Below are positions 26,574 through 57,280 of a stretch of DNA of 64,000 nt, one piece after another. Positions within the stretch are counted from its first letter, which is position 1. Each line of letters opens with the position of its first letter. The stretch is from Prevotella sp. tf2-5. Its GTDB lineage: Bacteria; Bacteroidota; Bacteroidia; Bacteroidales; Bacteroidaceae. Under the pieces are notes generated by a model. It searched no databases. It worked only from the letters and a program-made list of their open reading frames with translations, and had not been told where the DNA came from. The DNA is taken from NCBI RefSeq assembly GCF_900115435.1, contig NZ_FOWK01000004.1, forward strand, positions 124,001 to 188,000. The letters run 5' to 3'. The position numbers and the translations under genes are program-made.

Positions 26574-26622
26574 CAAAGATAAGACAAAAAATATGTATAT
26601 GGTCTGGAGTTATAGGTATAAC
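26574..26622 (-). promoter_or_regulatory. cargo-regulon promoter: GTTATA-GG-TATAAC operator plus TATCTTTG
   Basis: The palindrome GTTATA-GG-TATAAC (26609-26622) is separated by exactly 27 bp from the minus-strand -7 box TATCTTTG (26574-26581). It drives the WG/AAA+/GNAT/LRR operon. There is no TTTG -33 box. Confidence 0.75.
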
Positions 26623-26649
26623 ATATACTCTTCAATTATTTACATTTCT

Positions 26650-26698
26650 GTTATACATATAACAAAACAGGTAATACAAATACTATTAATTATCTTTG
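26650..26698 (+). promoter_or_regulatory. cargo-regulon promoter: GTTATA-CA-TATAAC operator plus TATCTTTG
   Basis: The palindrome at 26650-26663 is followed after 27 bp by TATCTTTG (26691-26698). It drives the zincin gene and is back to back with the previous operator. Confidence 0.75.
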
Positions 26699-26723
26699 CC
26701 ATAAAATTAAAAGTAACATCAAT

Positions 26724-27161
26724 ATGGCAAGTATTAGAAACATTAAGAAAAGTAACAAGTATCAAACTGTCGATTACTCAGATTTCTCACATGAGGAGTA
26801 CCAGAATCTCCTTCATAGTGGGAGTAAAGTTGAACCAAGGAAAAAAGCTGCGCAAGAACTTTTGAACTACCTTTGTGACAAATATGGAATTCCACGTTGC
26901 CCAATATTTGTCTTTAATACGACATACGACCCCAAATTTGGATTCACATGTATGGGATTATATCAAGGAGTTAAAGAAGGAATTACCCTTTGGAACAATC
27001 GTCACTATATGGTTCCATGTGACATCAGAACCTTCATCAATACACTTCTTCATGAATTTATGCATCACTATGACTATTATTATTTGAGATTACCAGATTC
27101 TGTTCATTGTAAAGGATTTGAATCAAGAATAAGGGACTTGAGGAGGAAACTTGCGAGTTAA
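26724..27161 (+). CDS. SprT-like zinc metalloprotease-fold protein
   Basis: 145 residues. The zincin signature LLHEFMHHYD gives metal ligands His110 and His114 with catalytic Glu111. A third ligand is probably His128 in LPDSVHCKGFESR. A short HEXXH protein ending in a helical tail resembles the SprT/Wss1 group, some of which cut proteins crosslinked to DNA. The match is looser than for the zincin at 53330-53710. It is monocistronic or leads into the sigma-factor gene, though a hairpin overlaps its 3' end. The protease activity is inferred from the motif. Confidence 0.78.
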   Translation: MASIRNIKKSNKYQTVDYSDFSHEEYQNLLHSGSKVEPRKKAAQELLNYLCDKYGIPRCPIFVFNTTYDPKFGFTCMGLYQGVKEGITLWNNRHYMVPCDIRTFINTLLHEFMHHYDYYYLRLPDSVHCKGFESRIRDLRRKLAS

Positions 27162-27172
27162 TTCTCGCTTTT
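27153..27172 (+). terminator. terminator overlapping the zincin stop codon
   Basis: GCGAG and CTCGC pair around TTAATT and are followed by TTTTCTC. The hairpin includes the TAA stop of the zincin gene. Confidence 0.55.
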
Positions 27173-27187
27173 CTCCCAATCCTTATC

Positions 27188-27236
27188 GCTATACGTATAT
27201 AATGGAGGCATGTGTGTTTATATTATAGTAACTTTG
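27188..27236 (+). promoter_or_regulatory. cargo-regulon promoter: GCTATA-CG-TATATA operator plus TAACTTTG
   Basis: The palindrome at 27188-27201 and TAACTTTG at 27229-27236 are 27 bp apart. It drives the RpoD-like sigma-factor gene, which places that gene inside the regulon. Confidence 0.75.
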
Positions 27237-27265
27237 CAACCCAAAAAGTATAAGATAGTAGAAAT

Positions 27266-28138
27266 ATGAGACAACTGAAGATTAACAAAAGCATTACCCC
27301 TCGTTCTGAGCAGTCACTCGACAAGTACCTTTCTGAGATTAGTCGTGTTCCTTTGGTGTCAACTGAAGAAGAAGTATTACTTGCCCAAGCCATTCATGCG
27401 GGAGGAAAGAAAGGTGAAATTGCCAAAGACAAGCTTGTTAAAGCCAATTTGCGCTTTGTGGTATCTGTTGCTAAACAATATCAGAACCAAGGTGTTTCCC
27501 TTACAGACCTGATTAGTGAAGGAAATATTGGACTTATAACAGCTGCTAATAAGTTTGATGAAACACGTGGTTTCAAGTTTATCTCCTATGCCATCTGGTG
27601 GATTCGTCAAAGCATCCTTCAGGCCATCGCAGAGTACAGCAATATGGTACGCAGGCCCCAGAGTCAGATTGCCATCAGCAACAAGATCAAGAATGCCACG
27701 AATGAATTTATTCAGAAACAGCAACGTTACCCGTCTGCAGAGGAGTTGAGTGACATTATTTCTTTGGAAATTGACAAGATTGAAAAGGCCATTCAAGGTG
27801 AAGCACATGTTGCCAGTATTGATGCTCCCATTTCTGAAGATGAGGGAACAACGGTAGCTGATATGATGTCGTCCTCCTCAGAGTATGCAACTGACCGAAA
27901 GGTTGACCATGACTCCATGTGTAGCGACCTGATGCAAGTGTTGTGTACCGTCCTCAATGATAGGGAAAGAACTATTGTCATCCAAAGTTTTGGCATTGGA
28001 TGTCAAGAGAGGGCACTCGACGATATTGGCTACGATATGGGACTTACCCGTGAACGTGTCCGTCAGATCCGTGAGCGTGGTCTGGACAAGATGCGCAAAA
28101 GCAGCAAGTCAAGATTTCTTCTCAGGCACTTAGGTTGA
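27266..28138 (+). CDS. RpoD-like sigma-70 factor (accessory copy)
   Basis: 290 residues with the same architecture as the Bacteroidetes primary sigma factor: the N-terminal MRQLKINKSITPRSEQSLDKYL, region 1.2/2 (KANLRFVVSVAKQYQNQGVSLTDLISEGNIGLITAANKFDETRGFKFISYAIWWIRQSI), region 3, and region 4 HTH (LDDIGYDMGLTRERVRQIRERGLDKMRKSSKSR). Region 2.3-2.4 is well conserved, so it should read promoters like the housekeeping factor. Regions 3 and 4.1 are diverged (CTVLNDRERTIVIQSFGIGCQERA). It starts a probable operon with the phosphoesterase 17 bp downstream and is a likely driver of the island. It is unlikely to be the only rpoD of the cell. Confidence 0.9.
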   Translation: MRQLKINKSITPRSEQSLDKYLSEISRVPLVSTEEEVLLAQAIHAGGKKGEIAKDKLVKANLRFVVSVAKQYQNQGVSLTDLISEGNIGLITAANKFDETRGFKFISYAIWWIRQSILQAIAEYSNMVRRPQSQIAISNKIKNATNEFIQKQQRYPSAEELSDIISLEIDKIEKAIQGEAHVASIDAPISEDEGTTVADMMSSSSEYATDRKVDHDSMCSDLMQVLCTVLNDRERTIVIQSFGIGCQERALDDIGYDMGLTRERVRQIRERGLDKMRKSSKSRFLLRHLG

Positions 28139-28155
28139 ATTGTTTGCATAAGATA

Positions 28156-30114: not shown

Positions 30115-30122
30115 TAAATAAA

Positions 30123-30270: not shown

Positions 30271-30987
30271 CTATTTTGTTATTATTTCTATCTTCCCGTT
30301 GAGGAATGGTTTCCATTCATCGGCTCCGAAATCCCCCTCCACAAATACCGTATCGCCAGGAGCAACGGTCTGGTTCCAGTGTTCCATCAGTGTCTCGTTG
30401 CGACTCGTACTTGGTTTAATCATCCTGCTCAACTTATCCATCGGCTCAAATGCCGGACCTGGCATATGGTGAGCTTTCTCTTCCTCCTTACGAGGACGTT
30501 CCATCCATGCCTTTAGTTCCGTCATGCAACCTTCGAGTGAAGTATGGATATTTTCTACTCCATAGTACTTTGCCATACGCCGCAGATGATGAATACCAGC
30601 CATGTCATCACCATTCTCATTCTTGAACTCGGGATCAATACCGATGATTACCCTATGCCCACGCGCCAGATTCTCTGCCATCTCCAATCTGGTGGTGATG
30701 GCATAATAACGCCAAGGCTTCATAGGACGGGCCTGAGGCGGAATCCAGAATAAAATCACGTCGCACATGCGCAGGCCAAAGGTTTCCCAGTTCACCTGAT
30801 AGGTACCCGTCACAAATCGATCTGTCTTACGGGGATTCAGGAATGTAATGTCATCAATACCAACCTTTGCAGCCACCTTGGGAGCCTGAGCCTGCCAAGA
30901 TGGTGCGCCATTCATCGGGCCTGCCAGAAATACAGTCCACTGAGTTTTCTCAGTCACTGGCGTCGGGGATTTAATAACTTCAATCAT
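30271..30987 (-). CDS. nucleoside 2-deoxyribosyltransferase-like protein
   Basis: 238 residues. The first 150 match the deoxyribosyltransferase/DNPH1-like Rossmann fold: VFLAGPMNGAPSWQAQ (nucleotide-binding GPM), TFLNPRK, WETFGLRMCDVILFWIPPQ and AITTRLEMAENLARG, where the acidic residue in TRLEM could be the nucleophile. These enzymes cut or swap N-glycosidic bonds of deoxynucleosides, and relatives act on NAD-like substrates. The C-terminal 90 residues form a separate small beta-rich extension (VFVEGDFGADEWKPFLNGK). It is transcribed divergently from the ART-like gene from a promoter carrying the regulon palindrome. Confidence 0.82.
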   Translation of the reverse strand: MIEVIKSPTPVTEKTQWTVFLAGPMNGAPSWQAQAPKVAAKVGIDDITFLNPRKTDRFVTGTYQVNWETFGLRMCDVILFWIPPQARPMKPWRYYAITTRLEMAENLARGHRVIIGIDPEFKNENGDDMAGIHHLRRMAKYYGVENIHTSLEGCMTELKAWMERPRKEEEKAHHMPGPAFEPMDKLSRMIKPSTSRNETLMEHWNQTVAPGDTVFVEGDFGADEWKPFLNGKIEIITK

Positions 30988-31009: not shown

Positions 31010-31077
31010 CAAAAGTACGAAAAATAATCAAAAGTTGCTCTTTATTATACTTATAATCGATTTTTTTCGTATATTTG
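31010..31077. promoter_or_regulatory. divergent cargo-regulon promoter: ATTATA-CT-TATAAT
   Basis: The palindrome at 31044-31057 lies 26 bp from the minus-strand -7 box TACTTTTG (31010-31017) of the deoxyribosyltransferase-like gene. It lies only 12 bp from the plus-strand TATATTTG (31070-31077) of the ART-like gene. One bound protein could thus affect the two directions differently. Confidence 0.65.
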
Positions 31078-31100
31078 CATCAATTTTAATGGCTTGTTAT

Positions 31101-31706
31101 ATGGAAATATTTTATCATGGCACATCAGTGCTTTTCAAGAAGTTTGATATTGCCCATGCTTTGGAAGGCGATGGCAAGGCGAAATTTGGTTTTGGTACTT
31201 ATGTCACAGAGTCATATACATCTGCTGCGCACTATGCTTACAATAAGAAGCGTCCAGAGAACAAAGACTATTATGTTTATACCCTTGAGATTCCCGATAT
31301 GACAGAAGATAACTATCTGTTCTCCTGTCGCCCTGTTCATCCATCTATCATTGGACGTACTGAAAAGGTTCTTGGCGAGCAGATTCCTGCTGAAGCAACT
31401 ACTGTTGGCAAGTATTTCCGTAAATATGTTGGTAATCGACTTACAGGTAAAGAGGGTACTGTAAAGAAACTCATTGGTAGTGCAGACCTCGATTCAGAAA
31501 AGGCTGCTGCTAAATTCTTCAGCGAGATAGGTCTTGAATATTTTGCATGGCCACAGGCACAGACTAACCCTGATGGCTTGACAAATAGAGTTGTCTTGAA
31601 CATTGACAAGATTCGCATTGTTCGCATCGACAAGGTGGAGCTTGACCCGAAGAAGTTCCAGCTCGTAGAAGGTTCCCCAAAAGAAATTCCGTTTGACAGT
31701 TTCTAA
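31101..31706 (+). CDS. ADP-ribosyltransferase-like (ART-fold) protein
   Basis: 201 residues. The start MEIFYHGTSVLFKKFD has the H-G-T motif of the ADP-ribosyltransferase/KptA-like fold. FGFGTYVTESYTSAAHYA supplies the strand with an aromatic residue and the helix, and VYTLEIPD follows. A third motif with a typical Glu is not clearly recognised near NRVVLNIDK, so catalysis is uncertain. It is followed after 13 bp by a NADAR gene, suggesting a modifier and eraser pair. I used the ATG at 31101 because a start at 31089 would leave almost no leader after the -7 box. The family call is moderate. Confidence 0.65.
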   Translation: MEIFYHGTSVLFKKFDIAHALEGDGKAKFGFGTYVTESYTSAAHYAYNKKRPENKDYYVYTLEIPDMTEDNYLFSCRPVHPSIIGRTEKVLGEQIPAEATTVGKYFRKYVGNRLTGKEGTVKKLIGSADLDSEKAAAKFFSEIGLEYFAWPQAQTNPDGLTNRVVLNIDKIRIVRIDKVELDPKKFQLVEGSPKEIPFDSF

Positions 31707-31718: not shown

Positions 31719-32297
31719 ATGAACTTCTACAGTATAGCCCCATTTATTCAGGAATTCTATCCTGAATATTATTCCATAGAGACGTACCCTGTTTCTGAGT
31801 GTGTTGCCATCCGTAAGGTGAAAGAGTTTTGGGGTATTTTGGGAAATTTCGCTCCCACACCTATTGTTATTAATAATGTGACGTTCAAAACTTCAGAGCT
31901 GTTGTTCCAGCTTATGAAATTCAAAGACGAAGAGCCAGTGAAGGCAGTCTTCAGTGCTAATAATCCCAAGATGACCACCAAGCATTGGGAAAAGACCCAC
32001 CGTCGAGAAGACTGGGGTAAGATCATCGTTGATGCCATGAAGTTCTGTCTTACAAAGAAGTACGAACAAAGTGAGGATTTCCGTAAGGAACTGGAGCGCT
32101 CTAAAGGTAAATACATTGTCGAAGACCAGACATCCTTCCCCAAAAAGACTCCAGACACCTGGGGTGTCAAACAACAAGGTGACAACTATGTCGGTCCAAA
32201 CCTCTTAGGTCGACTCCTGATGGAACTTCGCGACAACGGGAAATTGGAATATAAACTCCCTGATGACGCTTTTACGTTCCTTCAGTATCTGAAGTAG
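31719..32297 (+). CDS. NADAR domain protein 1 (YbiA-like)
   Basis: 192 residues of the NADAR/YbiA family. Conserved blocks are EFWGILGNFAPTPI (NF motif), TSELLFQLMKF (with the key Glu), TPDTWGVKQQG (DxWG) and VGPNLLGRLLMELR (GxNxLGxxLMxxR). NADAR proteins are known to remove ADP-ribose from nucleic acids, including guanine bases modified by DarT-type toxins. Position 13 bp after the ART-like gene supports a reversal or immunity function. Its stop region overlaps the end of the converging gene by 26 bp. Confidence 0.88.
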   Translation: MNFYSIAPFIQEFYPEYYSIETYPVSECVAIRKVKEFWGILGNFAPTPIVINNVTFKTSELLFQLMKFKDEEPVKAVFSANNPKMTTKHWEKTHRREDWGKIIVDAMKFCLTKKYEQSEDFRKELERSKGKYIVEDQTSFPKKTPDTWGVKQQGDNYVGPNLLGRLLMELRDNGKLEYKLPDDAFTFLQYLK

Positions 32298-37975: not shown

Positions 37976-38170
37976 TTACACATTCTCTTTATTGTGGGTC
38001 TTTCGGTAATCATCAGCTGAGATATAACCATTACGTTAGCACTCCTCTACATCTATCTTCGGGTGCAGTTTAATCTCCGTATTCTGGATTTTAAGCGAAT
38101 CAGACTCAATGATTCTTCTTTCTTGCTTTTTTAACTTCGCGAGCATTTCTTCTGAACTAATGTCCTTCAT
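37976..38170 (-). pseudogene. small paralogue family member D, interrupted by an in-frame TAA
   Basis: The frame starts MKDISSEEMLAKLKKQERR and reaches IDVEEC, where TAA follows at 38038-38036. The same frame then continues RNGYISADDYRKTHNKENV. That tail is the equivalent of ERGYISASDYRKYLNERLYG in the protein at 38419-38640, and the stop falls where that protein has a leucine, so no frameshift is involved. It is therefore a premature stop, a sequencing error or a recoded site. The upstream 44-residue peptide may still be made. It overlaps the preceding gene by 14 bp. Confidence 0.6.
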
Positions 38171-38447
38171 ATTCTTTGCTTATTGCTTTCATTGTTTCTT
38201 CTTTAGCTTCATCTATCGTGAGCCACTCATTATTGTTAATCTCTTCTTGGGAAATGGAACTATATCCTCTTTCAATTCTCCTAAACATATCTTCTGCTTT
38301 ACTATATCCATTAGCCAGATACCAATCAACATCAAGATCATAATCATCATATTTACCATCACAATTATGTTCAGATATCATAAGATCCCGAGTATAAACA
38401 ACCATTTTCTCACCTTCATTATTTATCAGATGTACCTTCCTGCCCAT
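38157..38447 (-). CDS. small paralogue family member C (96 aa)
   Basis: Starts MGRKVHLINNEGEKMVVYT and contains the family core DGKYDDYDLDVDWYLANGY, then an extra C-terminal helix (WLTIDEAKEETMKAISKEYEG) that the shorter members lack. The ATG at 38447 gives a 29-bp overlap with the previous gene; a longer frame from 38480 would bury the conserved start. Strongly acidic. No known function. Confidence 0.72.
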   Translation of the reverse strand: MGRKVHLINNEGEKMVVYTRDLMISEHNCDGKYDDYDLDVDWYLANGYSKAEDMFRRIERGYSSISQEEINNNEWLTIDEAKEETMKAISKEYEGH

Positions 38448-38640
38448 ATAATCTTTCATTGAGATATTTACGATAGTCACTTGCTGAAATATAGCCTCTT
38501 TCTAAATAGGAAGAAACATCCAACCTGGGAAGATTTTCAATTTCTTCCTCAGAAAGATTTGCAGGTTCTCCATTAAGGAGATTCTCATCCATTTCAAAAA
38601 TATTACCTTTACCATCTCTAATTTTAACTATCCTTCCCAT
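38419..38640 (-). CDS. small paralogue family member B (73 aa)
   Basis: Starts MGRIVKIRDGKGNIFEMDE, then LPRLDVSSYLERGYISASDYRKYLNERLYG. It is a diverged member: D-V-S-S-Y-L-x-x-G-Y replaces D-V-D-W-Y-L-x-x-G-Y. It ends GTSDK because its last 29 bases also encode the start of member C in another frame. It overlaps member A by 17 bp. No known function. Confidence 0.72.
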   Translation of the reverse strand: MGRIVKIRDGKGNIFEMDENLLNGEPANLSEEEIENLPRLDVSSYLERGYISASDYRKYLNERLYGQEGTSDK

Positions 38641-38827: not shown

Positions 38828-38859
38828 ATCCAATTCTTATTATTATTCTTTTCTAGGTG

Positions 38860-38944
38860 CAAAATTACAGATTTTCTTTGGTTGACATACCTCGTTCTAT
38901 ACGTATATATTCACGGTCTATATGGAAGGAAATTCCGAACTTTG
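38860..38944. promoter_or_regulatory. divergent cargo-regulon promoter: TCTATA-CG-TATATA
   Basis: One palindrome (38896-38909) serves two divergent transcripts. It is 28 bp from the minus-strand -7 box TAATTTTG (38860-38867) and 27 bp from the plus-strand GAACTTTG (38937-38944). The near-equal spacing on both sides supports a shared activator. Confidence 0.75.
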
Positions 38945-38970
38945 CACCGCGAAACATAAATCACAGTACA

Positions 38971-41337: not shown

Positions 41338-41373
41338 AATGAAAGAACTCCTGAAATGTATTTTGTACCTTTG
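41325..41373 (+). promoter_or_regulatory. cargo-regulon promoter: GGTATA-CG-TATAAA operator plus TACCTTTG
   Basis: The operator (41325-41338) sits inside the last codons and stop of the ADP-ribosylglycohydrolase gene. It is 27 bp from TACCTTTG (41366-41373) of the sugar kinase gene. Confidence 0.75.
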
Positions 41374-41404
41374 CACCCAGATTGATTTATTTAGGTTGTA
41401 TAAT

Positions 41405-45076: not shown

Positions 45077-45090
45077 CGCTGCAGATTATC

Positions 45091-48000
45091 ATGACAAAGA
45101 CTTTCATAAGCGCCGGAGCAGGATCTGGCAAAACATACAGAATAACCACCGATGTCGCAAAGATGGTGTTCGACGGGAAGTTGAATCCCGAACAGGTAAT
45201 AATGACTACGTTTACCAAGGCTGCCGCACAGGAACTACGCGAGAAGGCAAAAAAAGAACTGGCTAAACTTGGCAAGCATCGTGAGGCACAGCAAATGGAA
45301 CATGCTCTTATTGGAACTGTCCATTCTGTGGCCAATTCTTTCCTGACCAAGTATTGGTATCTGCTCGGCATTATGCCTGATGCCGCTGCTATGGAAGAGA
45401 ATGAACTCCAGCTTTATCGTGACCATTCACTTCGCGGGCTGCTTGAGCCCAAAGACCGCAATTTCCTCTATAGATATGCGGAAGACTATAATGTTATATA
45501 TGATCCAAAGGAGCGCAAGTCTGGTATCAATTATGAGTTTTGGAAGGCTGACCTCTGTAAAGTTCTCGACTTCATGCAGTGGTATGGCATCAATGAAGAG
45601 CAACTGAAGAAAAGCCTTGAAACAACCGAAAGCTTCATTAAGTGTTTGGAACCTAAGGAAGATACATCACTGATGGAATGTGCCAAAGCCGTTATCTGTG
45701 AGGTTGAAGAGATTCTGACCAGTATGACCAGACCTGGGGCAAAGGCAAAAGCTGAATTCGAGCGTATCAATTACTACAAGGGGCGAGAACTTTCTATAGA
45801 CGAACTGAATGACTTGGAATCTATAGCCAAGGGACGTTGCAAGGATTCTGATAATACAAAGCGTTTGTCAGCAAGTCTTTCAGGAATGGAAATTTTCACA
45901 GAGGAGAGATCCAAACGTCAAAGAGAGTACGCCTCCCTCATTTTCCGATTGGCCAGCAGATGGCAAAAGGAATACCGTCAGTATAAGGATGAGCATCACC
46001 TGATAGACTTCAACGACATGGAGGAGATGTTCCTTGACCTACTTGGGATGCCTGAGGTTCAGAATGACATCAAGTCGCGTTATACCCATCTGTTTGTGGA
46101 CGAGTTCCAGGATTCCAACCCCATGCAGGTACGCATCTTTCAGGGACTTTCCAAACTGCTTAACACCTGCTATGTTGGTGATAAGAAGCAGGCTATATAT
46201 GGCTTCCGAGGATCTGACACAGAATTGACAGCTGCAGTAGCCGACAGCATTTCTGACACAGAACATTTGGAGCACTCTTACCGTTCAGTCAAGCCGCTTG
46301 TTGACTTCTCTAATGCCATTTTCTCGCAGGTATTCAGCAAGATGACAGAGAAGGAAGTGAAACTATTGATGCCAGAGAAGAATGGCAATGACACTCCTGT
46401 CAAACATCCGCTTCGCCTATGGCCTTATAACGGTGACAAGAATCTTGCTCAACAAATCCAACAGTTCATACTCCAAGAGGGAATGGATGCGAAAGACGTC
46501 GCCGTCTTGGCTCGTACGAATGAGAACTTGGATAAGTTGGCCGATGAACTTCGAGCATTAAAGGTTCCTGTATGTCGTGAATCCAATGACATAAAGGAGT
46601 CAAGGGCTGGCCGTCTTATGAAAGCTCTTCTTACTTTGGTTAACAGACCACATAATCAGTTGGCACGAGCAGAAGTAGCCTATCTGACGGAACCAGGCTA
46701 TAATGTCACCAAGATTATCGAAAATCGACTTGACTTCCTGTCTGAAGAGAGTCAAGACCCTACTGTGTATCTAAAAGAAGTGCCCATTTTAAACCGTTTG
46801 GGTAGTCTTCTGAGTTTTCGCTCCACGAAAGAACAGGAGTTTGCAACTAACTTGCTTGGCTATCAAAGTATAAGTTCGCTTGTTGAGAGTCTCGTTATCG
46901 AACTTGACCTCTATGCTCTAGTACAGGGGTGGGAAAACGCGTTAGCAGAGGAAACTAACCTCCAAGTGCTTATAGACCTTGCACGGAGATATGAAGACTA
47001 TGCTACCAAATTAGCACAGCCCGCAACAGTGGCAGGCTTTATAGATTTCTTCACCGGACAGAAACAAGACGGAGCTGCAAACGAAGACGGTGTTCGGCTT
47101 TTTACTTATCATAAGTCGAAGGGGTTGGAATGGAAGGTAGTCATCCTGCTGTCGCTTGAAAACGATGCTTCCGATGCCACAAAGATAGCTACACGTAGTA
47201 TGTTGGGATGCCACTATCATCGCGAACAGCTACCGACTCCGGAGAATCCAAACCCTCCTATGACTATCTCATTGGTTCGTAACATCTATGCTCCTTCAAA
47301 CGAGAATGCCAAGAAATCTGCAGTCACATCACGTATGCAGCAACATCCGTCTTGGCAATCCATCTCAGAACGTGAGATAGGAGAGAATGCACGACTACTA
47401 TATGTGGGTGTAACCCGTGCTCGCGAAATTCTGATTCTTGCCCCTAAAGAGAAAGACAATGGCATTACCCTCAGCTGGTTCCGTTCAGTTAGAGTTGAGA
47501 ATGTTGCACAACTTCTTGACGGGAGTCATAGCCAAGACCTCTTTGGCATAGGTATGCCGTTCCATATCGAGCGTTATGATAGTGACAACGTTTTAGCTTG
47601 GCCTGAACACGTCATGAACGGTGTTCACGATATGGCAAAAGACTTCTCTCCGCTAAATAACATCCTTTTTGTATCTCCGTCAAAAGCAGGAACTGCTCCA
47701 CATGACATTGTTCCCATAAACGACAAAGAGTATCGTATGCTCGTCCGTAACAAAACGAGCGAAGAAGCTCTCATGGGGGACTTCATCCACCAAGTATTTT
47801 GTTGTTGTGATGACGGTATCAGTGTTGAGCGAATTATTCAGCTCCGTGACAGCTATGGGTTTACAGAAAAGAATATGCCAGAGCCAGGCCGACTGTTAGA
47901 TTCGTGGACATATCTGACAGATTTGCTTGAATCACGCTACGGAAAATCTGTAATGCGGCATCATGAGAAACCTTTCCGTCATATTGACGATGAAGGACAT

Positions 48001-48240
48001 GTAGTTAGCGGCTACATTGATCTCATCTGGGAAACAGTAGATTCGTATATTATTATTGATTACAAGACATGTCCCGGCAGCTATAGTCTTGTGTTCAATC
48101 CAACCAGTGAACACTATGCAGGCCGTCATGGCGACCAACTCGACTGCTATCAGCAGGCTTTAGAAGCTGAAGGGAAGAAAAAGGTCGCTGCGAGAATTAT
48201 CTATTATCCCATCACACAATTCGTCGTTGAAGTAAAGTAA
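45091..48240 (+). CDS. AddA/RecB-like UvrD-family helicase-nuclease
   Basis: 1049 residues. All UvrD-type motifs are visible: I (Walker A) SAGAGSGKTYRI at 7-15, II DEFQDSNPMQ, III GDKKQAIYGFRGSD, V/VI YHKSKGLEWKVVILLS and LLYVGVTRAREILIL. A C-terminal nuclease domain has HIDDEGHVVSGYIDLIWE...IIIDYKTC (D...DYK) and the LDCYQQALE block. Together with the upstream protein it makes an AddAB-like complex. I used the ATG at 45091. The operon continues into the NADAR-2 and sirtuin genes, linking DNA-end processing to ADP-ribose handling. Confidence 0.93.
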   Translation: MTKTFISAGAGSGKTYRITTDVAKMVFDGKLNPEQVIMTTFTKAAAQELREKAKKELAKLGKHREAQQMEHALIGTVHSVANSFLTKYWYLLGIMPDAAAMEENELQLYRDHSLRGLLEPKDRNFLYRYAEDYNVIYDPKERKSGINYEFWKADLCKVLDFMQWYGINEEQLKKSLETTESFIKCLEPKEDTSLMECAKAVICEVEEILTSMTRPGAKAKAEFERINYYKGRELSIDELNDLESIAKGRCKDSDNTKRLSASLSGMEIFTEERSKRQREYASLIFRLASRWQKEYRQYKDEHHLIDFNDMEEMFLDLLGMPEVQNDIKSRYTHLFVDEFQDSNPMQVRIFQGLSKLLNTCYVGDKKQAIYGFRGSDTELTAAVADSISDTEHLEHSYRSVKPLVDFSNAIFSQVFSKMTEKEVKLLMPEKNGNDTPVKHPLRLWPYNGDKNLAQQIQQFILQEGMDAKDVAVLARTNENLDKLADELRALKVPVCRESNDIKESRAGRLMKALLTLVNRPHNQLARAEVAYLTEPGYNVTKIIENRLDFLSEESQDPTVYLKEVPILNRLGSLLSFRSTKEQEFATNLLGYQSISSLVESLVIELDLYALVQGWENALAEETNLQVLIDLARRYEDYATKLAQPATVAGFIDFFTGQKQDGAANEDGVRLFTYHKSKGLEWKVVILLSLENDASDATKIATRSMLGCHYHREQLPTPENPNPPMTISLVRNIYAPSNENAKKSAVTSRMQQHPSWQSISEREIGENARLLYVGVTRAREILILAPKEKDNGITLSWFRSVRVENVAQLLDGSHSQDLFGIGMPFHIERYDSDNVLAWPEHVMNGVHDMAKDFSPLNNILFVSPSKAGTAPHDIVPINDKEYRMLVRNKTSEEALMGDFIHQVFCCCDDGISVERIIQLRDSYGFTEKNMPEPGRLLDSWTYLTDLLESRYGKSVMRHHEKPFRHIDDEGHVVSGYIDLIWETVDSYIIIDYKTCPGSYSLVFNPTSEHYAGRHGDQLDCYQQALEAEGKKKVAARIIYYPITQFVVEVK

Positions 48241-48251: not shown

Positions 48252-49133
48252 ATGAGAGTAACAGATAAACACGTATGTTTCTGGAACGAATGGCCAAGCA
48301 ATTGGCATCCAGCAGAATTTGACATTGAAGTAAACGAAGTACACTGTCACTTCTATAATACTGAGCAGTATTTCATGTATATGAAGGCCATTGTCTTTGG
48401 TGATGAAGAAATTGCCAAGCAAATCCTCGCTGATGGCAATCCCAAAAAGGTAAAGGCTCTTGGCCGTAAGGTGCAGAACTATGACGAACAGGTTTGGAAT
48501 GATAAGCGTTATCAAATCATGCTTAAAGCCAATGTCGCCAAGTTCAGTCAAAACGAAGACTTGAAACAACTTCTTCTATCCCCGGAATATAAGGGACATG
48601 GTTTTGTTGAAGCCTCTCCTTATGATAAAGTATGGGGTATTCGTATGTATGAGAGTAATCCAGATATAGACAACGAGACTAAGTGGAAAGGGCTCAACCT
48701 TCTTGGCAAAGTCCTGGACGAAACCCGCAGAATCATTGTTGAAGAAGAGTCCATTAAAGAGAATTTCTTAATCTGGGATGACCGAGATACAAACGAGTGC
48801 TTCTTTGGTATTTCTATTCTTATAGGTGACCAATCATATACAGGAAAGAAGGAGTTGAAGTTTGATTCAAGCAATCCTGATAAGATGCCAACAATATTGC
48901 TCCATGACGAATATTGGCAAGTCGAAAGCTTGAGACTTACCGATAGGCATGAAATGGAACTGAATCTTATCAGTAACGATATCACCAAAAAAGTGCTTGT
49001 TTCAGATGATGAAATTGAAAAGAAGGAAGCTTACAAGCTACTCTGTGCGGCCTTCGATAATACTGAGCACGAGAAATCAGAAGGTGAAGACTATGAAGAT
49101 GTAGAGGATTTCTACGGATGGGAGCTTTCATAG
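48252..49133 (+). CDS. NADAR domain protein 2 with a C-terminal extension
   Basis: 293 residues. Residues 1-160 are a NADAR/YbiA domain: FWNEWPSNWHP, NTEQYFMYMKA with the conserved Glu, ASPYDKVWGIRM (DxVWG) and KGLNLLGKVLDETRRI. The C-terminal 130 residues are an added, unrecognised acidic domain (WDDRDTNECFFGISILIG; ends EDYEDVEDFYGWELS). It is 11 bp after the AddA-like gene and 25 bp before the sirtuin gene. It is distant in sequence from the NADAR protein at 31719. Confidence 0.86.
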   Translation: MRVTDKHVCFWNEWPSNWHPAEFDIEVNEVHCHFYNTEQYFMYMKAIVFGDEEIAKQILADGNPKKVKALGRKVQNYDEQVWNDKRYQIMLKANVAKFSQNEDLKQLLLSPEYKGHGFVEASPYDKVWGIRMYESNPDIDNETKWKGLNLLGKVLDETRRIIVEEESIKENFLIWDDRDTNECFFGISILIGDQSYTGKKELKFDSSNPDKMPTILLHDEYWQVESLRLTDRHEMELNLISNDITKKVLVSDDEIEKKEAYKLLCAAFDNTEHEKSEGEDYEDVEDFYGWELS

Positions 49134-49158: not shown

Positions 49159-49857
49159 ATGAATAAGAAACTGGTTGTTCTGTCTGGAGCAGGAATAAGC
49201 AAAGAAAGTGGTATTGATACATTCCGCGATAAGGATGGCATTTGGAAAAAGAAAGATGCCATGCAGTTGGCAAGCATCGAAGGATGGAATAACAATCCTA
49301 AGGCTGTGCTTGACTTCTACAATGCCCGTCGTCGCCAGTTGCTGGAGGTTCAGCCAAACAAAGCTCATGAGTTGTTGGCACAACTTGAAGAATGGTACGA
49401 TGTCAGTATAATCACCCAAAATGTCGATGACCTCCATGAAAGAGCTGGTTCTTCTCATGTCATACATCTTCATGGAGAGCTTGCCAAGGTCTGTTCGTCC
49501 ATCGACAAGGAGAAAACGGAGTGTATCGAGTTCCGCCCTCTGTTTGATGATATTCAGCTTGGTGACAAAGCTAAAGACGGTAGTCAACTTCGTCCTTATA
49601 TTGTCTGGTTTGGTGAACCTGTTCCCAACATGCCTATTGCAATGAATACGGCTTTCGAGGCTGATATCTTTGTTGTTATTGGTACGTCCCTGTTGGTTTC
49701 ACCAGCAAACACACTAACAGCATGTTCAGGCGCAAATCATAATATTGTAATTGATCCAGGGGAGGTGGAGATTCCAGAAGGGTTCCTCCATATCAAGGAA
49801 ACCGCAACTATTGGTATGGAAATGCTATACCATTCTCTCTGCAAATTGGCTCAATAA
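49159..49857 (+). CDS. Sir2-family NAD-dependent deacylase
   Basis: 232 residues of the sirtuin fold. The NAD-binding GAGISKESGIDTFRD, TQNVDDLHERAG, catalytic His105 in HLHGEL, and GTSLLVSPA are all present. The usual zinc-binding CxxC pairs are not; KVCSSIDKEKTECIEF has only two cysteines, as in many Bacteroidetes sirtuins. SQLRPYIVWFGEPVP matches the deacylase-type C-terminal part. It consumes NAD and makes O-acyl-ADP-ribose, a possible substrate for its macrodomain and NADAR neighbours. Confidence 0.92.
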   Translation: MNKKLVVLSGAGISKESGIDTFRDKDGIWKKKDAMQLASIEGWNNNPKAVLDFYNARRRQLLEVQPNKAHELLAQLEEWYDVSIITQNVDDLHERAGSSHVIHLHGELAKVCSSIDKEKTECIEFRPLFDDIQLGDKAKDGSQLRPYIVWFGEPVPNMPIAMNTAFEADIFVVIGTSLLVSPANTLTACSGANHNIVIDPGEVEIPEGFLHIKETATIGMEMLYHSLCKLAQ

Positions 49858-49866: not shown

Positions 49867-49915
49867 GGTATACGTATAGAAACATAGCCTTTCCAAGGTA
49901 GATTGTCTAATTTTG
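49867..49915 (+). promoter_or_regulatory. cargo-regulon promoter: GGTATA-CG-TATAGA operator plus TAATTTTG
   Basis: The operator at 49867-49880 is 27 bp from TAATTTTG (49908-49915). It drives the HAD phosphatase gene. Confidence 0.75.
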
Positions 49916-49943
49916 CAGCCGTAAATGTTAATAGTTAGTGTTT

Positions 49944-50576
49944 ATGGCAAAGCAGAAGATAATCAATCGTGACTACAAAACAGTGCTTTTCGACTACGAC
50001 GGCACTCTATTCGATACTGTAGAAGCTGACCAGTACGTGGCCAGACAAAAGACCCTACGACGTTTTTCCCCTGAGTGGGTACAGGCCAGAAAGGAGTATC
50101 TCGAACACGTCAAGCAGTGTCCGTTGTACGATGGTTGGCACCAAGTCTTCGAATACATCAAAGCAAACAACATCCAGGCAGCCATCGTGTCTGGCAACAA
50201 CCGTGAAGTTCTGAACGTAGCCGTTCGCACTTTTGGTTTGCAGGAAATCTTCCCTAAGGATAAAATCAATCGCATAGGCTGTAAAGATGCCACTGGGCGA
50301 AGAATAAGGAAACGTGGTGGTAATCCCGCTCTCTTCGAATATGCTTTGAAGCAACTCAAAGAAGACCCTACTCATGTTCTTGCCTTTGGCAACGAACTGT
50401 GCGATGCACAGGCTGCTGGCAATGCAGGCATCAAGGCATACCATTGTCTTTGGGGTGCAGATGCAGGCGAGAAAGAGCTGATGCTCGCAGACCCAGAGCA
50501 TCAATGTATTACATCACCACTCCAAATAATCGACATCTTGCGTTCTGAGGTCAATTCTCAGAACCAACCAGCTTAA
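49944..50576 (+). CDS. HAD-superfamily phosphatase
   Basis: 210 residues. Motif I is FDYDGTLFDTVEADQ (nucleophile and acid/base aspartates), and motif II is AAIVSGNNREVLN. A later LAFGNELCDAQAAGNAGIKAYHCLWGA block contains the motif IV acidic residues. A C1 cap domain is implied by the spacing. The ATG at 49944 is preferred over a GTG two codons earlier. The likely substrate is a small phosphate ester such as a sugar phosphate, but it cannot be chosen from sequence. Its promoter is in the regulon. Confidence 0.88.
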   Translation: MAKQKIINRDYKTVLFDYDGTLFDTVEADQYVARQKTLRRFSPEWVQARKEYLEHVKQCPLYDGWHQVFEYIKANNIQAAIVSGNNREVLNVAVRTFGLQEIFPKDKINRIGCKDATGRRIRKRGGNPALFEYALKQLKEDPTHVLAFGNELCDAQAAGNAGIKAYHCLWGADAGEKELMLADPEHQCITSPLQIIDILRSEVNSQNQPA

Positions 50577-50579: not shown

Positions 50580-50628
50580 GTTATATGTATAACTTTAGTG
50601 TTTGTTTTGTTGTTAATGCCTACCTTTG
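50580..50628 (+). promoter_or_regulatory. cargo-regulon promoter: GTTATA-TG-TATAAC operator plus TACCTTTG
   Basis: The palindrome with perfect arms at 50580-50593 is 27 bp from TACCTTTG (50621-50628). It drives the second AAA+/LRR/zincin operon. Confidence 0.75.
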
Positions 50629-50654: not shown

Positions 50655-52409
50655 ATGAATATTAGAAAGAAACCAGTACGCAGACTTAAGTCAGGAATCG
50701 GAGGTCAGGTAGATCTCCCAGGTGAGATTATGGACGAGTTCAAGGAGCCTGACACTTGGACTATCATCACTGCACTTGACAGAATCCTTGATTTGGCACA
50801 GGACTCTCAATTGTCAGACGAGTTTTGGAAGTCGGTAAAGAATCCATTGGCTTTTCTTAATAAGGAACTGGGGTTAACCAACGTCCAGATTGTCGCTCTT
50901 GCCATGCTCATTGAGGCTGGCGAACCGATGTCTTGGAAGAGCATGGGTAACTATCTCGGCTGTTCTCGTCTGTCAATCATGGTATATTCTGAGGAGATTG
51001 AGGAATTGGTAACCAAGCGCTGGGCTATTCACAAAGGAGTCCATGAGATTGGTGGTTTCTTCGAGGGTATTGCTCTGGTACGTGGTGTAGTCACGGCACT
51101 TCGTCATAACAAGACATTCGTTCCAGAGAAGATAGACGGTCTTAATGAGCAACAGTTCGTTGACAAACTGGAGAGGCATGTCGAAAAGAATATGAATGAC
51201 CGCAATGCAGTATTTAATGATGATGAGGAATGGATGCGCGAATTTGCCAAGGCGAATCCACATCTTCCTCTCTGTCATGAGGTCCTGAAGTTTGATGATA
51301 TTCATGTTCAGTCGCTTCTGTTGCTGATAGTCGTTGATTATGCACAGTGGGAAGGTTCTGATGGTGAGGGTCTTACCTTCCAGACTATCGATGGTCTTTA
51401 TCCAGAAGAGTATGACTGTGACTTTATGCGCGAGGGACTTAGAGACGGGACTCATCCCCTCATTCAATGCGGTTATATTGAGCATAAGTGTAATGAGGGC
51501 CAGGCCGATACAGAGCAGTATATGCTCACACGTAAGGCAAAGTCTGAGCTTCTTTCTGCCTATACGCCCAGTCACTCAAAGTGTAGAAGGATGAGACCCG
51601 ATGACCGCTTCCTGAAAAGCCACGATGCCATCAGGGAGAAGTCGTTGTTCTTCAATACATCAGAGCAAGAGCAGATTGAGCGACTCACCAGTCTGCTTAG
51701 TACCGAGACCCTGCCCTCTATCCAGAAGCGACTCGAAGAACAGGGTATGCGCAAGGGCTTTGCTTGCTTGTTTTATGGTGCCCCTGGTACGGGTAAGACT
51801 GAGACTGTCCTACAGATTGCCCGTCAGACGGGACGTGACCTCATGCAGGTGGACATCGCTGGTCTGCGCGATAAGTGGGTTGGTGAGAGTGAGAAGAATA
51901 TCAAGGAGGTGTTTGCCCGTTATCGCAGACTGTGTCAGAACAGCGAGGTGATGCCCATCCTGTTTTTTAACGAGGCAGATGCCATCATCAACAAGCGCAC
52001 GGAGAACGTGGAGCACTCTGTCGATAAGATGGATAACGCCATGCAGAACATCATCCTGCAGGAGATTGAAGACCTTGATGGCATTCTCATTGCCACCACC
52101 AACCTGACGAGCAACCTTGACAAGGCCTTTGAGCGTCGTTTCCTCTACAAGGTGGAGTTCCACAAGCCTGATACGGACGTGAAGACCAAGATTTGGCGTT
52201 CCATGCTGAAGGATATCAGTGCAGACGATGCCCGTCAGCTGGCCTCCCACTTCGATTTCTCTGGTGGTCAGATAGAGAATATCGCCCGCAAGCGCACAGT
52301 TGACTACATTCTCTCAGGTAAATTCGCTTCTCTTGACGAGATAGAGGGCTACTGTCGCGCAGAGCTCCTGGGTGGCAAGGAACGAAGAAGCATAGGTTTT
52401 ATTTCATAA
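50655..52409 (+). CDS. AAA+ ATPase, paralogue 2 of the duplicated cassette
   Basis: 584 residues, collinear with the protein at 24003-25742. Helical N-terminal 340 residues are followed by an AAA+ domain: Walker A FYGAPGTGKTET at about 373, Walker B PILFFNEADAIINKR with Asn in place of the first Asp, sensor IATTN, arginine finger KAFERRFLYKVEF and final SIGFIS. It has its own regulon promoter and is followed by an LRR protein (10-bp gap) and a SprT-like zincin. The order AAA+, LRR, zincin suggests an unfoldase with an adaptor and a protease. Confidence 0.88.
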   Translation: MNIRKKPVRRLKSGIGGQVDLPGEIMDEFKEPDTWTIITALDRILDLAQDSQLSDEFWKSVKNPLAFLNKELGLTNVQIVALAMLIEAGEPMSWKSMGNYLGCSRLSIMVYSEEIEELVTKRWAIHKGVHEIGGFFEGIALVRGVVTALRHNKTFVPEKIDGLNEQQFVDKLERHVEKNMNDRNAVFNDDEEWMREFAKANPHLPLCHEVLKFDDIHVQSLLLLIVVDYAQWEGSDGEGLTFQTIDGLYPEEYDCDFMREGLRDGTHPLIQCGYIEHKCNEGQADTEQYMLTRKAKSELLSAYTPSHSKCRRMRPDDRFLKSHDAIREKSLFFNTSEQEQIERLTSLLSTETLPSIQKRLEEQGMRKGFACLFYGAPGTGKTETVLQIARQTGRDLMQVDIAGLRDKWVGESEKNIKEVFARYRRLCQNSEVMPILFFNEADAIINKRTENVEHSVDKMDNAMQNIILQEIEDLDGILIATTNLTSNLDKAFERRFLYKVEFHKPDTDVKTKIWRSMLKDISADDARQLASHFDFSGGQIENIARKRTVDYILSGKFASLDEIEGYCRAELLGGKERRSIGFIS

Positions 52410-54702: not shown

Positions 54703-54782
54703 TGCATATAATGCATGTATTAAAAAGTAGCATTTTTACTTATTATTAACCCAAAAACTTTGTACTGATAAGAAATAAAGTA

Positions 54783-54790
54783 TATCTTTG
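54783..54790 (+). promoter_or_regulatory. -7 box TATCTTTG before the Sel1-repeat gene
   Basis: TAnnTTTG 15 bases before the start. No KTATA-N2-TATAm palindrome at the usual distance. A TAATGCATATAATGCAT pair upstream (54701-54717) does not match. Confidence 0.5.
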
Positions 54791-54805
54791 TTGCAAAATT
54801 CAGAA

Positions 54806-57196
54806 ATGAGCACAAATACAGAGCAAAAGACAGGAGCGCTCCACCTGAGACTAATGGACAACGAGGAGCAGTACAGCGATATGCTCGCGTACCTTTTATA
54901 TTATAATAAGGATAACGAGCATTACACCACTGACGTACTGGGAGCTTTGGAAGATGGTTTGGAGAACTATAGCCGCTTCCAAAAACTCGACAATGCTCTC
55001 TCCCCCCGTTTCATCAAGATTGAGAAGCGCATAATGGACAAAGGTGAGAAATTGAAAGCCAATGATACCGAAGGCGCTTATCATATCAGATTCCATTTCG
55101 ATAACGAAAAGGAAGAGGTTGTTCACTTCAAGCGAAAGCAGGAACAATTGCTTTATATGCTCATTCTGTTGTCATCTCTGAAGAACGGCTATACCGCAGA
55201 GTTCCTCAGAAAACCAGTTAAAGAGGATTATTTGGATGATGACGGCGATCTGTATAAGAGAGCTTTTGAAAGAGCCAACAACAGGTATAACCTAATGATG
55301 GTTACGGCAAGGCAACTGATGGAAATGGTATATCCTGCTGGTGGAACTAAAGACAGTATCATCAGGGAAATGGATCCAGAGGTGTCTTTTACCGACATCA
55401 TCCAGAAAATGCGGAGTGTTATTGGTAGTGTTATCAAAAAAAACGGAGAGCTTCAAGAGGAACGTTGGTTCATGCCCTATACCTTGAATGTCAACAAGAA
55501 ACGTATCTATCAGATGCACATGGAACCAACAAAGATTATCTATCCTGAAGAATTGCAGCCCATTGTTGATGCCATGCCACAAGCCAATGATTATGTGGAT
55601 ATGAGCAGCTATGTGTCAGAAGAGATGCAGAAAGAGGATAATGAGATCCTTTTGAAAGGCGTTCAGATGGGTAATGTAAAGTCTATGAATCTGTTGGCAC
55701 AGGCATACAATGAAGGTATTGGTCGTGTAGCAGACCAGGACAAGGCCTTTGCTCTTTGGAAAAAGACATCAGAAATAGGTGATGCTGAGGGGCTTTTCTA
55801 TGTTGGGGCATTTTATGGCACAGGCGATGTTGTGTCTCAGGACTATAGCAAATCCATACAATACCTCCAGAAAGCAGCTGAACTGGGGTATGCTGATGCA
55901 CTCTATCAACTAGGAGTGTACAGATTGCACGGCTTCGGATGCGACATTGACTGGAATGAAGCACTGAATTATTACAGAGCAGCGGCTGAAAAAGGTTGTG
56001 CTGAAGCAGCATACTCAGCAGGATACATCTACGACAGAGGAGAGCACGGTGTGAAGAAAGATGATAAGAAAGCTTTCAACTGGTTTCTGAAAGCCGCTGA
56101 ACTGAACCACACAGTAGCAATTCGCTATGTCATTCGTGCTTATCACGACGGACTTGTGGAGGATGAAGAAGGTGAAGAATACCTGTATTGGATTGAAAAG
56201 GGGCTTGAACTCGACATACCTGAAGTATACTTACAAGTAGGTGTATATATGTATCAGGATGAGGATTATGAAATGGCTTTCGAGTTGCTCGAGACTGCAA
56301 GCGATGAAGGGTTAACAGTAGCCAATCATATCTTAGCCCAAATGTTGATTAAAGGCCAAGGTGTTGAGAAGGATATTGAACGTGGTATAGACTACCTCCG
56401 CGAGGGAGCTTATAACAACGATGAAACATGTTTGATGCTTCTAAAGAAAGTCCGTCCAGAACAATGGAAGGAAATAACCTCGGAGCTTGAAGATGTTCTT
56501 GATATGCGAACAACACTGCAGACACTTGTTGGAGAGATGACTCCACAAGCTAACCAAAACTATTTCCTACAGCTGGTTGATTCCTATCGTGAACATTTTC
56601 ATGAGGACTATCAGAAGGAGATTAACAAACAACTCAGTATCCATCGTTCATCAACAGACAAAAAGAGTAGATCAAAAAGAAAGATTATTGTCAGGAAGTC
56701 TTCATCCAAGAAGGCCCGTTATGAGATAGTTATCATCCTTGCCAATGGAGAAGAGATGCTGGTTAAGCTTAACCCCAACAGCTTGGTGCTTTTGCTTCTG
56801 ACCATCATTTGCTCCTTCAAGAGCGGTTATAGTACAGTAATGGCACTCGACAAGACATGTCGTTCGGTCATGGCAGAACTTGTCAGACTGGTACTTGGCT
56901 ATAGGTCTGAAGCCAAAGCCATCGACTATGTTTGGAAATACATGGACAGCTCACGAAACGGCACAAACTTCTATAAACAATACTCCAACGATGCGAAGAA
57001 GTCCATTGATAGAGCCATTAGTGAGTATGATGATGCTATTCATTTTCTGTTTGACAACAATGAAACGATAGGGAAGCGACCTCTTCGCTCAATGAATCTT
57101 GATGCCAAAGACATCGAATTACCGCCTGAACTTCTACGGCTTGCCCAGCAGATGCCGGACGGAAAAGAAATATTGTATTCACTTGAAGATGAGTAA
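54806..57196 (+). CDS. Sel1-repeat protein with flanking shared modules
   Basis: 796 residues. About 290-500 are Sel1-type helical repeats (LAQAYNEGIGRVADQDKAFALWKK; GLFYVGAFYGTGDVVSQDYSKSIQYLQKAAELG; ALYQLGVYRLHGFGCDIDWNEALNYYRAAAEKG). A module of about 160 residues flanks them. It is visible at about 90-130 (YHIRFHFDNEKEEVVHFKRKQEQLLYMLILLSSLKNGY) and again from about 637 (RYEIVIILANGEEMLVKLNPNSLVLLLLTIICSFKSGY). The same module makes up most of the protein at 57304-57858. Sel1 repeats are adaptors. The gene has its own -7 box. Confidence 0.8.
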   Translation: MSTNTEQKTGALHLRLMDNEEQYSDMLAYLLYYNKDNEHYTTDVLGALEDGLENYSRFQKLDNALSPRFIKIEKRIMDKGEKLKANDTEGAYHIRFHFDNEKEEVVHFKRKQEQLLYMLILLSSLKNGYTAEFLRKPVKEDYLDDDGDLYKRAFERANNRYNLMMVTARQLMEMVYPAGGTKDSIIREMDPEVSFTDIIQKMRSVIGSVIKKNGELQEERWFMPYTLNVNKKRIYQMHMEPTKIIYPEELQPIVDAMPQANDYVDMSSYVSEEMQKEDNEILLKGVQMGNVKSMNLLAQAYNEGIGRVADQDKAFALWKKTSEIGDAEGLFYVGAFYGTGDVVSQDYSKSIQYLQKAAELGYADALYQLGVYRLHGFGCDIDWNEALNYYRAAAEKGCAEAAYSAGYIYDRGEHGVKKDDKKAFNWFLKAAELNHTVAIRYVIRAYHDGLVEDEEGEEYLYWIEKGLELDIPEVYLQVGVYMYQDEDYEMAFELLETASDEGLTVANHILAQMLIKGQGVEKDIERGIDYLREGAYNNDETCLMLLKKVRPEQWKEITSELEDVLDMRTTLQTLVGEMTPQANQNYFLQLVDSYREHFHEDYQKEINKQLSIHRSSTDKKSRSKRKIIVRKSSSKKARYEIVIILANGEEMLVKLNPNSLVLLLLTIICSFKSGYSTVMALDKTCRSVMAELVRLVLGYRSEAKAIDYVWKYMDSSRNGTNFYKQYSNDAKKSIDRAISEYDDAIHFLFDNNETIGKRPLRSMNLDAKDIELPPELLRLAQQMPDGKEILYSLEDE

Positions 57197-57221
57197 GTTA
57201 CGTTAAGAAAAACTACCTTTT

Positions 57222-57280
57222 CTTATACCTATACATTCAGCATTTTTCTTAGGAAGGATGCTGATTTTTTAATACCTTTG
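57222..57280 (+). promoter_or_regulatory. cargo-regulon promoter variant: CTTATA-CC-TATACA operator plus TACCTTTG
   Basis: The palindrome at 57222-57235 lies 37 bp from TACCTTTG (57273-57280), one DNA turn further than the other sites. It drives the 184-residue protein and the second sigma factor. Confidence 0.6.

Follow-up and report, generated by a model that had tools for sequence, protein, structure and literature searches.

In activator-dependent promoters of the class II type, the site of a dimeric activator lies beside the -35 or -33 element. The promoters that we describe here are alike in having a symmetric site at a fixed distance just upstream of a degenerate -33 region, together with a normal -7 box, but they differ in that a single site is shared by many separate promoters in the cargo of a mobile island and in that these promoters are of the TAnnTTTG type. 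They were found in a 64,000-nucleotide stretch of the Prevotella sp. tf2-5 genome (hereafter the window; positions 124001-188000 of contig NZ_FOWK01000004.1, in a genome of 3.51 Mb and 23 contigs), where copies of TATANNTATA (TATA-N2-TATA) stand upstream of island cargo genes. Much of the cargo is probably controlled by a dimeric, sequence-specific activator with this palindrome as its operator, and on sequence evidence the palindrome marks a real, lineage-restricted regulon. Among the matches listed in the open-access literature, no matching site or regulon was found for the palindrome or for a TAnnTTTG or Prevotella promoter palindrome.

Spaced palindromes at the cargo promoters

An earlier note on this DNA, made from the letters alone, had described nine palindromes upstream of island promoters. 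A pattern search for TATANNTATA recovered every one, within 1-2 bp of where it had placed them (starts at 26611, 26652, 27190, 31046, 38898, 41327, 49869, 50582 and 57224), and a tenth copy in the window at 3124. We measured the gap from the last A of TATANNTATA to the T of TAnnTTTG. The gaps in the note are 2 bp shorter by convention and its values of 27, 26, 28, 37 and 12 bp all equal ours, but exactly 27 bp holds at six promoters and not at seven. With each promoter named by palindrome start and strand, the gap is 29 bp at 26611-, 26652+, 27190+, 41327+, 49869+ and 50582+, 28 bp at 31046-, 30 bp at 38898-, 39 bp at 57224+ and 14 bp at 31046+; eight spaced promoters in the window have an exact box at gaps of 28-30 bp. 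The ten promoters counted earlier are confirmed, but there is an eleventh. The palindrome at 38898 is two-way, with 30 bp to its minus-strand box and 29 bp to a plus-strand box, GAACTTTG, which is one mismatch from the consensus box, lies before an ADP-ribosylglycohydrolase gene and was newly found by the weight matrix described in the next section. The promoters and their targets are as follows, with matrix scores in brackets.

26574-26620, minus strand: promoter 26611-, with TATACCTATA at 26611-26620, a gap of 29 bp and the -7 box TATCTTTG at 26574-26581 (35.2); targets from 26576 down to 22613 are WG-repeat and AAA genes, then GNAT-like and leucine-rich-repeat-like open reading frames (ORFs; these last two by eye).
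26652-26698, plus strand: promoter 26652+, with TATACATATA, 29 bp and TATCTTTG (30.5); target 26724-27161, metallopeptidase-like by eye and without a Pfam match.
27190-27236, plus strand: promoter 27190+, with TATACGTATA, 29 bp and TAACTTTG (36.4); targets are the sigma factor gene 27266-28138, then calcineurin-like phosphoesterase and PARG genes.
31010-31055, minus strand: promoter 31046-, with TATAAGTATA, 28 bp and TACTTTTG (29.6); target is the nucleoside deoxyribosyltransferase-like gene 30271-30987.
31046-31077, plus strand: promoter 31046+, sharing its palindrome with 31046-, with 14 bp and the box TATATTTG; targets are ART-like 31035-31706 (below the Pfam cut-off) and NADAR 31719-32297.
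38860-38907, minus strand: promoter 38898-, with TATACGTATA, 30 bp and TAATTTTG (32.5); before the small ORF 38157-38480.
38898-38944, plus strand: promoter 38898+, sharing its palindrome with 38898-, with 29 bp and GAACTTTGCACC (29.6); target is the ADP-ribosylglycohydrolase (PF03747) in ORF 38857-41337, with a likely start near 38971 by eye.
41327-41373, plus strand: promoter 41327+, with TATACGTATA, 29 bp and TACCTTTG (39.9); targets are a PfkB-family kinase (ORF 41159-42313, internal start), PD-(D/E)XK 42404-45076 and UvrD-type 45061-48240.
49869-49915, plus strand: promoter 49869+, with TATACGTATA, 29 bp and TAATTTTG (35.1); before the HAD hydrolase gene 49938-50576.
50582-50628, plus strand: promoter 50582+, with TATATGTATA, 29 bp and TACCTTTG (38.0); before the cassette of the AAA ATPase 50655-52409, which includes an SprT-like gene.
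57224-57280, plus strand: promoter 57224+, with TATACCTATA, 39 bp (29 bp and one turn) and TACCTTTG; before 57304-57858 and 57870-58559.

Calling the site a 14-bp palindrome was generous. The inner 12 bp, TTATACGTATAA, are near-symmetric, but the outer flank is not: the G at position -2 (44 of 66 sites) faces a mirror position that is mostly A (40 of 66), with C in 14. These 66 sites, counted after identical stretches had been merged, were chosen by pattern, so that TATA, TATA, TA and TTTG are conserved by construction and only the flanks were free. The palindrome was also said to be missing from the core region. This is true of spaced sites, but the copy at 3124 is a perfect TATACGTATA within the core ORF 2600-3478, with no -7 box within 60 bp.

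The promoters lack a recognizable -33 element. We looked for TTTG 17-23 bp from the box in 63 unique palindrome promoters (identical ones merged) and in 285 other TAnnTTTGC sites of the same contigs, which were not merged. It was present in 4 of the 63, with 3.0 expected from shuffled spacers, versus 66 of the 285, which bears out the earlier remark that -33 TTTG boxes are absent or poor. A, G and C are weakly preferred at the would-be -33 element (positions 15-19). By the usual numbering of Bacteroidetes promoters, the palindrome centre would lie about 46-48 bp upstream of transcription, beside sigma region 4, which is a place for an activator and not for a typical repressor. In the mechanism that we propose, a dimer bound to the near-symmetric TTATACGTATAA site 29 bp (28-30 bp) upstream of an otherwise normal Bacteroidetes -7 box would sit beside the would-be contact of sigma region 4 with -33 and would recruit RNA polymerase in place of that contact. 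Recruitment from beside -33 would account for the rigid spacing, with one extra turn (39 bp) kept in evolution.

The same palindrome could instead be the operator of a repressor of the XRE, WYL or MarR type, which would keep the cargo silent until it was lifted, as happens in many defence islands. We regard this as unlikely. A MarR-like winged helix is predicted in the AAA proteins discussed below, a small XRE-like gene (L021:2212-2424) is present in three islands, and at 31046+ and at a similar promoter in a relative (L256) the palindrome is only 14 bp from the box, where a bound protein would block polymerase. At nearly all of the promoters found, however, the site is upstream of -33, where TTTG occurs at the chance level given above, as if polymerase needed help, and repressor sites tolerate varied positions, which these palindromes do not.

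Near-confinement to the island and to Prevotella-type genomes

Markov shuffles of the window (orders 1-3, 60 each) gave 0-0.02 spaced sites at gaps of 24-30 bp versus eight observed, and 0.65-2.3 palindromes versus 10 observed. As an independent test, we derived a weight matrix from 49 sites of other genomes, excluding the tf2-5 genome and the near-identical G098, and used it to scan the window and its surroundings (144 kb in all) at gaps of 28-30 bp with a cut of 12 bits. Twelve promoters exceeded the cut with scores of 29.6-42.3, every one of them in cargo, and no match fell in the flanking core or the mobile backbone (including the tyrosine integrase 15278-16525 and the Mob_Pre relaxase 20886-22508) within these 144 kb. 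Of two shuffled controls, one was empty and the other had a single match at 19.2. The regulon extends past the window: three of the twelve promoters lie 21-23 kb beyond it (contig positions 209046-211367).

The earlier note had asked whether hits in the host genome are confined to this island. At gaps of 22-30 bp, the genome has 15 pattern matches versus five for a reversed control, 10 of the 15 having a gap of exactly 29 bp. Eleven of the 15 are in the island (eight in the window and three at 209046-211367). A further match with a gap of 29 bp, C4:15012, precedes an ORF for an IS1595/ISXO2-type transposase (Pfam), and the remaining three lie off the island with gaps of 22 or 30 bp, two of them AT-centred and one being TATACTTATA at C16:39690 (gap 30 bp). 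Palindrome promoters were also seen before transposases of this type in other genomes (L207, L222, L226 and L237, assigned by similarity or by eye), so that an insertion sequence may be under the same control.

We also scanned 200 genomes of the genus, which were not pre-selected and include the tf2-5 genome and G098, and found 110 spaced matches in 45 genomes versus 14 for the reversed pattern. Matches centred on G or C have gaps of 29, 28 and 30 bp in 64, 20 and 3 cases, and AT-centred matches in 7, 6 and 10. The AT-centred look-alikes, having no preference for 29 bp, provide an internal control by which real sites are told from look-alikes. This comparison bears on the possibility that no protein reads the palindrome, which would then be an AT-rich upstream element or a feature of DNA structure that aids polymerase directly. 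Such a feature would fit a site that is AT-rich and promoter-bound, but it would not explain why the 29-bp gap goes with G/C centres, why CG is the most frequent centre (in 30 of 63 unique sites, a set that mostly lacks AT-centred matches) or why the motif is nearly restricted to one lineage and to islands. We consider it very improbable.

The lineage range was narrow in wider scans as well. In the order, the CG-centred pattern was found in 2 of 393 genomes, both of the same genus as the host (1 of 206 genera), one of them matching once with a gap of 28 bp; the reversed control matched once. Among 84,980 species genomes, the CG-centred pattern at a gap of 29 bp gave 68 stretches, some from one genome. 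Sixty-one are titled Prevotella, Xylanibacter, Prevotellaceae, Bacteroidaceae or other Bacteroidales (most of them Prevotella or Prevotellaceae, one Candidatus Sodaliphilus, and many from ruminants and other animals), and seven have other titles. These scans suggest that the motif is nearly confined to Prevotella-type genomes.

Within this range, the palindrome promoter is kept at orthologous promoters in diverged genomes. We fetched 40 related stretches from the genus-scan matches at gaps of 28-30 bp, mostly passing over AT-centred ones; the gap is 29 bp in 67 of their 79 sites, a count that, like those from the 19 further genomes below, describes conservation and not frequency. The variant spacings recur too. 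The gap at 57224+, which had been described as one helical turn longer, is again exactly 39 bp before the orthologous gene in the diverged genomes G071 and P5-50, and the divergent 14-bp arrangement of 31046+ recurs in G081 (L256). The cargo-wide regulon with fixed spacing that the earlier note proposed is thus upheld both by its confinement in the host genome and by the spacing in homologous islands. The spacer of 57224-57280 contains a terminator-like hairpin (by eye), and in G071:C82 (L255:1350) the hairpin is changed on both arms with the spacer exactly 10 bp longer, as at 57224. By eye, this hairpin resembles a terminator for the upstream gene that has been retained in the promoter.

Candidate regulators

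The activator would itself be encoded by the island. No obvious cognate regulator had been seen in the earlier note, and Pfam indeed sees no helix-turn-helix in either of the two families that we put forward, but structure prediction suggests winged helices in both. The proteins concerned, with the two sigma factors discussed beside them, are listed here.

57304-57858, plus strand: candidate regulator, a stand-alone protein of 184 amino acids (aa) with a predicted OmpR/PhoB-like winged helix and no Pfam match.
54788-57196, plus strand: Sel1-repeat protein with two copies of the 57304-type domain (aa 77-271 and 628-801).
50655-52409, plus strand: second candidate, an AAA ATPase with a predicted N-terminal MarR-like winged helix.
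24003-25742, minus strand: AAA ATPase paralogue, 40% identical to 50655-52409, in the 26611- cassette.
27266-28138, plus strand: sigma factor under a palindrome promoter, a paralogue of the core's primary sigma factor with 60% identity to it.
57870-58559, plus strand: sigma-like protein in which Pfam recognizes region 2 only.

The first candidate is the OmpR/PhoB-like winged-helix family (57304-57858 and 54788-57196), which we advance tentatively. Its domain is common to 57304-57858, both ends of 54788-57196 and proteins beside motif promoters elsewhere. The AlphaFold2 model of 57304-57858 (mean predicted local distance difference test, pLDDT, 89.5) aligned by VIA-align to AdeR (Z 7.8), PhoB (6.8) and ToxR (6.0) over 93-98 residues, all under the Z of 8 below which caution applies, with the next row at 3.1; only the chains ranked highest by Foldseek were compared. 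The likeness to these regulators is to their DNA-bound domains. In contrast to them, the protein has no Pfam match and seemingly no room for a separate receiver, and the domain is joined to Sel1 repeats in 54788-57196. The 184-aa model has no separate receiver-sized domain and no Pfam receiver match, a separate receiver protein not having been sought. The family occurs in 15 of the 200 genus genomes, including 11 of the 17 with two or more G/C-centred sites versus 4 of the 183 others.

The second candidate, a possibility that we rate much the same, is the AAA+ proteins with the MarR-like winged helix (50655-52409 and 24003-25742). The N-terminal 350 residues were modelled with a pLDDT of 77.4 and are MarR-like over residues 22-154 (best Z 8.2 in VIA-align, again among the chains ranked highest by Foldseek); most of the best 50 rows are MarR-type, at about 2.6-5.7 A root-mean-square deviation. 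Among 30 AAA loci of the genus taken from the matches listed, a spaced palindrome stands at the gene's own promoter in eight of the nine most similar loci (at least 44% identity) and in none of the 21 others, and 12 of 20 AAA genes listed in further motif-bearing genomes carry the spaced site.

Several points weigh against these candidates, and some against an island-encoded activator altogether. At E <= 0.001, Foldseek gave no match for the model of 57304-57858 or for the AAA N-terminal model. The winged-helix profile was built from proteins beside motif sites, so that its association with the motif is partly circular, and we lowered its odds for this reason. Three genomes with the family (G070, G071 and G151) have no G/C-centred site at 28-30 bp, although one of them, G071, does have the 39-bp form. 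Direct repeats are the usual binding sites of OmpR-type domains. The AAA clade is not cleanly cut: 40%-identical genes in G088:C37 and G596 carry the site, whereas a similar gene in G036 does not. Neither candidate is universal. In 19 further motif-bearing genomes, chosen from the matches in the 84,980 species genomes and of completeness not given, the winged-helix family was found in 12, the AAA family in 15 and neither in two. Co-occurrence with the motif may reflect only shared island membership (hitch-hiking), and the palindromes before IS1595-type transposases would favour a regulator in the host core genome.

Other proteins were considered as the general reader of the site and set aside. 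The AAA family as a whole is present in 47 of 200 genomes and is weakly associated with the motif (p 0.0011, two or more sites); its similar clade tracks better. Copies of the sigma factor 27266-28138 with at least 90% identity were found in only 4 of 26 chosen genomes, and other motif-bearing genomes among the 26 are without it. A short helix-turn-helix protein without a WYL domain at the island edge (L022:8998-9411) is enriched, but it is also present in G045 and G070, which have no sites, and 13 of the 17 genomes with two or more sites have no copy of at least 80% identity.

A host-encoded WYL regulator linked to rtcB and Ro60 might also read the site, wiring the island into a host RNA-damage regulon. 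In G111 and in P5-50, where Ro60 has a motif promoter, wyl and rtcB-like genes adjoin motif promoters; in G081 they lie about 7 kb from motif sites; and a 137-aa relative without a WYL domain is found at the island edge (no Pfam WYL match in this protein; not every island protein was scanned). The genome of tf2-5 itself, however, has 11 island sites, and a full-length WYL query found in it nothing but the 137-aa fragment and two distant proteins (33-34% identity) on contig C15. The single-contig G045 has an 82% identical short relative and no site. The wyl-rtcB intergenic region moreover carries a different inverted repeat, TACGCA-N7-TGCGTA (by eye), for which we also rejected the WYL-rtcB regulator as reader, and we regard this explanation as quite unlikely. 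In G081 and G111 that repeat stands before the rtcB-like gene, with a similar one before wyl (by eye); it may be the WYL operator.

The gene order downstream of 57224+ suggests one further arrangement. The sigma gene of the 57870 type lies directly downstream of a gene of the 57304 type in eight of nine distinct loci (the tf2-5 locus and that of G098 being near-identical); in the ninth (L203) it is 1.1 kb away, with a WYL gene between. Not all orthologues of 57870-58559 were scanned with Pfam, and the L203 protein also matches region 1.2. No region 4 was found in the partner 57304-57858, which has no Pfam match and a predicted winged helix instead. This fixed pairing motivates reading the two as an island-encoded initiation factor in two parts, in which the sigma protein 57870-58559 would melt TAnnTTTG and a winged-helix dimer of 57304-57858 on the palindrome would replace region 4. 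The nearest described case is SigO-RsoA of Bacillus subtilis, a two-subunit sigma factor in which the partner is a region-4 protein. Both systems consist of two small proteins encoded side by side, one with a match to sigma region 2 only, but in the putative pair here the partner is a predicted winged helix. We think this arrangement improbable. If true, a dedicated holoenzyme would read mobile-element promoters without a -33 box, and the fusion of the winged helix to Sel1 repeats or other N-terminal regions would let RNA damage, ADP-ribose and phage inputs trigger one programme.

Targets of the regulon and a possible RNA-damage theme

Judged from the target genes, the programme under the probable activator would be an emergency one, answering to ADP-ribose signals, to RNA or DNA damage, or to attacking phages. 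The promoter-bearing stretch also includes a Sir2 gene (49159-49857) and a second NADAR gene (48252-49133). In relatives, the promoters precede orthologues of several cargo genes as well as SbcD-like, Sir2, HD-domain (by eye) and Ro60 genes. A published survey ties NADAR to RNA repair and virus-host conflict (PMC9503650). The island resembles such conflict systems of RNA repair and NAD/ADP-ribose in its NADAR, ART-like, ADP-ribosylglycohydrolase, PARG, Sir2, 2H and Nudix (by eye) genes, and its relatives do so in their Ro60 and rtcB-like genes. It differs in that the survey covers viral systems, and a second paper (PMC7790460) covers RtcR-controlled rtcBA, whereas here a palindrome-spaced regulon with TAnnTTTG boxes is carried on a Prevotella-type island.

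Two relatives (RUG14682 and P5-50) have a TROVE/Ro60 gene behind a palindrome promoter, with a leader some 320 nucleotides long. These loci adjoin rtcB-like (by eye) and WYL genes; in the RUG14682 copy, TROVE was assigned by Pfam. Over 217 nucleotides the leaders share 76% identity, but they differ in the middle. That of RUG14682 (L234:5540-5620, before the TROVE gene 5682-7295) contains there a copy of the GTPase-associated centre of 23S rRNA (Rfam RF02541 positions 1079-1158, 63.9 bits, E 1.1e-16) whose closing stem is altered; in the homologous leader of P5-50 (L185), another module takes this place. An Rfam scan of the window and the next 40 kb at the gathering threshold gave no match to the 23S GTPase centre. 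Although outside the window, the rRNA element in a Ro60 leader supports the RNA-damage theme. In G081, two tRNA-like RNAs (L058:7646-7764 and 7847-7964, minus strand; RF00005, 52.9 and 46.8 bits), the higher-scoring one with a long insertion in its anticodon region, lie upstream of a gene for a 754-aa protein (Prok-RING, sub-threshold) beside rtcB-like and WYL genes.

Downstream of the window, the cargo continues with a second ADP-ribosylglycohydrolase and a 2H/LigT phosphoesterase, and with restriction-type genes (DUF262/Orf5-like, two methyltransferases, McrB-like and a NERD helicase). Two SAM-I/IV riboswitches were also found there (L021:1537-1647, plus strand; L022:7949-8053, minus strand). 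Comparison of L021:2212-17128 with G098C16 and G081C39 revealed a different restriction or defence-type block in each of the three islands behind the conserved small XRE-like gene, a spot that is likely an exchange site within the cargo.

Several results are new: the test with a matrix from other genomes, the restriction to one lineage, the AT-centred sites as a control on spacing, the promoters that had been missed, the conservation of the 39- and 14-bp gaps, and the two concrete regulator candidates. Whereas defence and stress islands are usually viewed as sets of separate systems, a single motif at a single distance appears here to join ADP-ribose enzymes, AAA+ ATPases, sigma factors and DNA repair in one travelling programme, to which Ro60 is joined in relatives. 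Members of this programme can be predicted from the motif in Prevotella-type genomes that lack annotation, the motif offers a direct handle on the regulator, and the promoter architecture without a -33 element could become a tool for bacteria that have few genetic tools.

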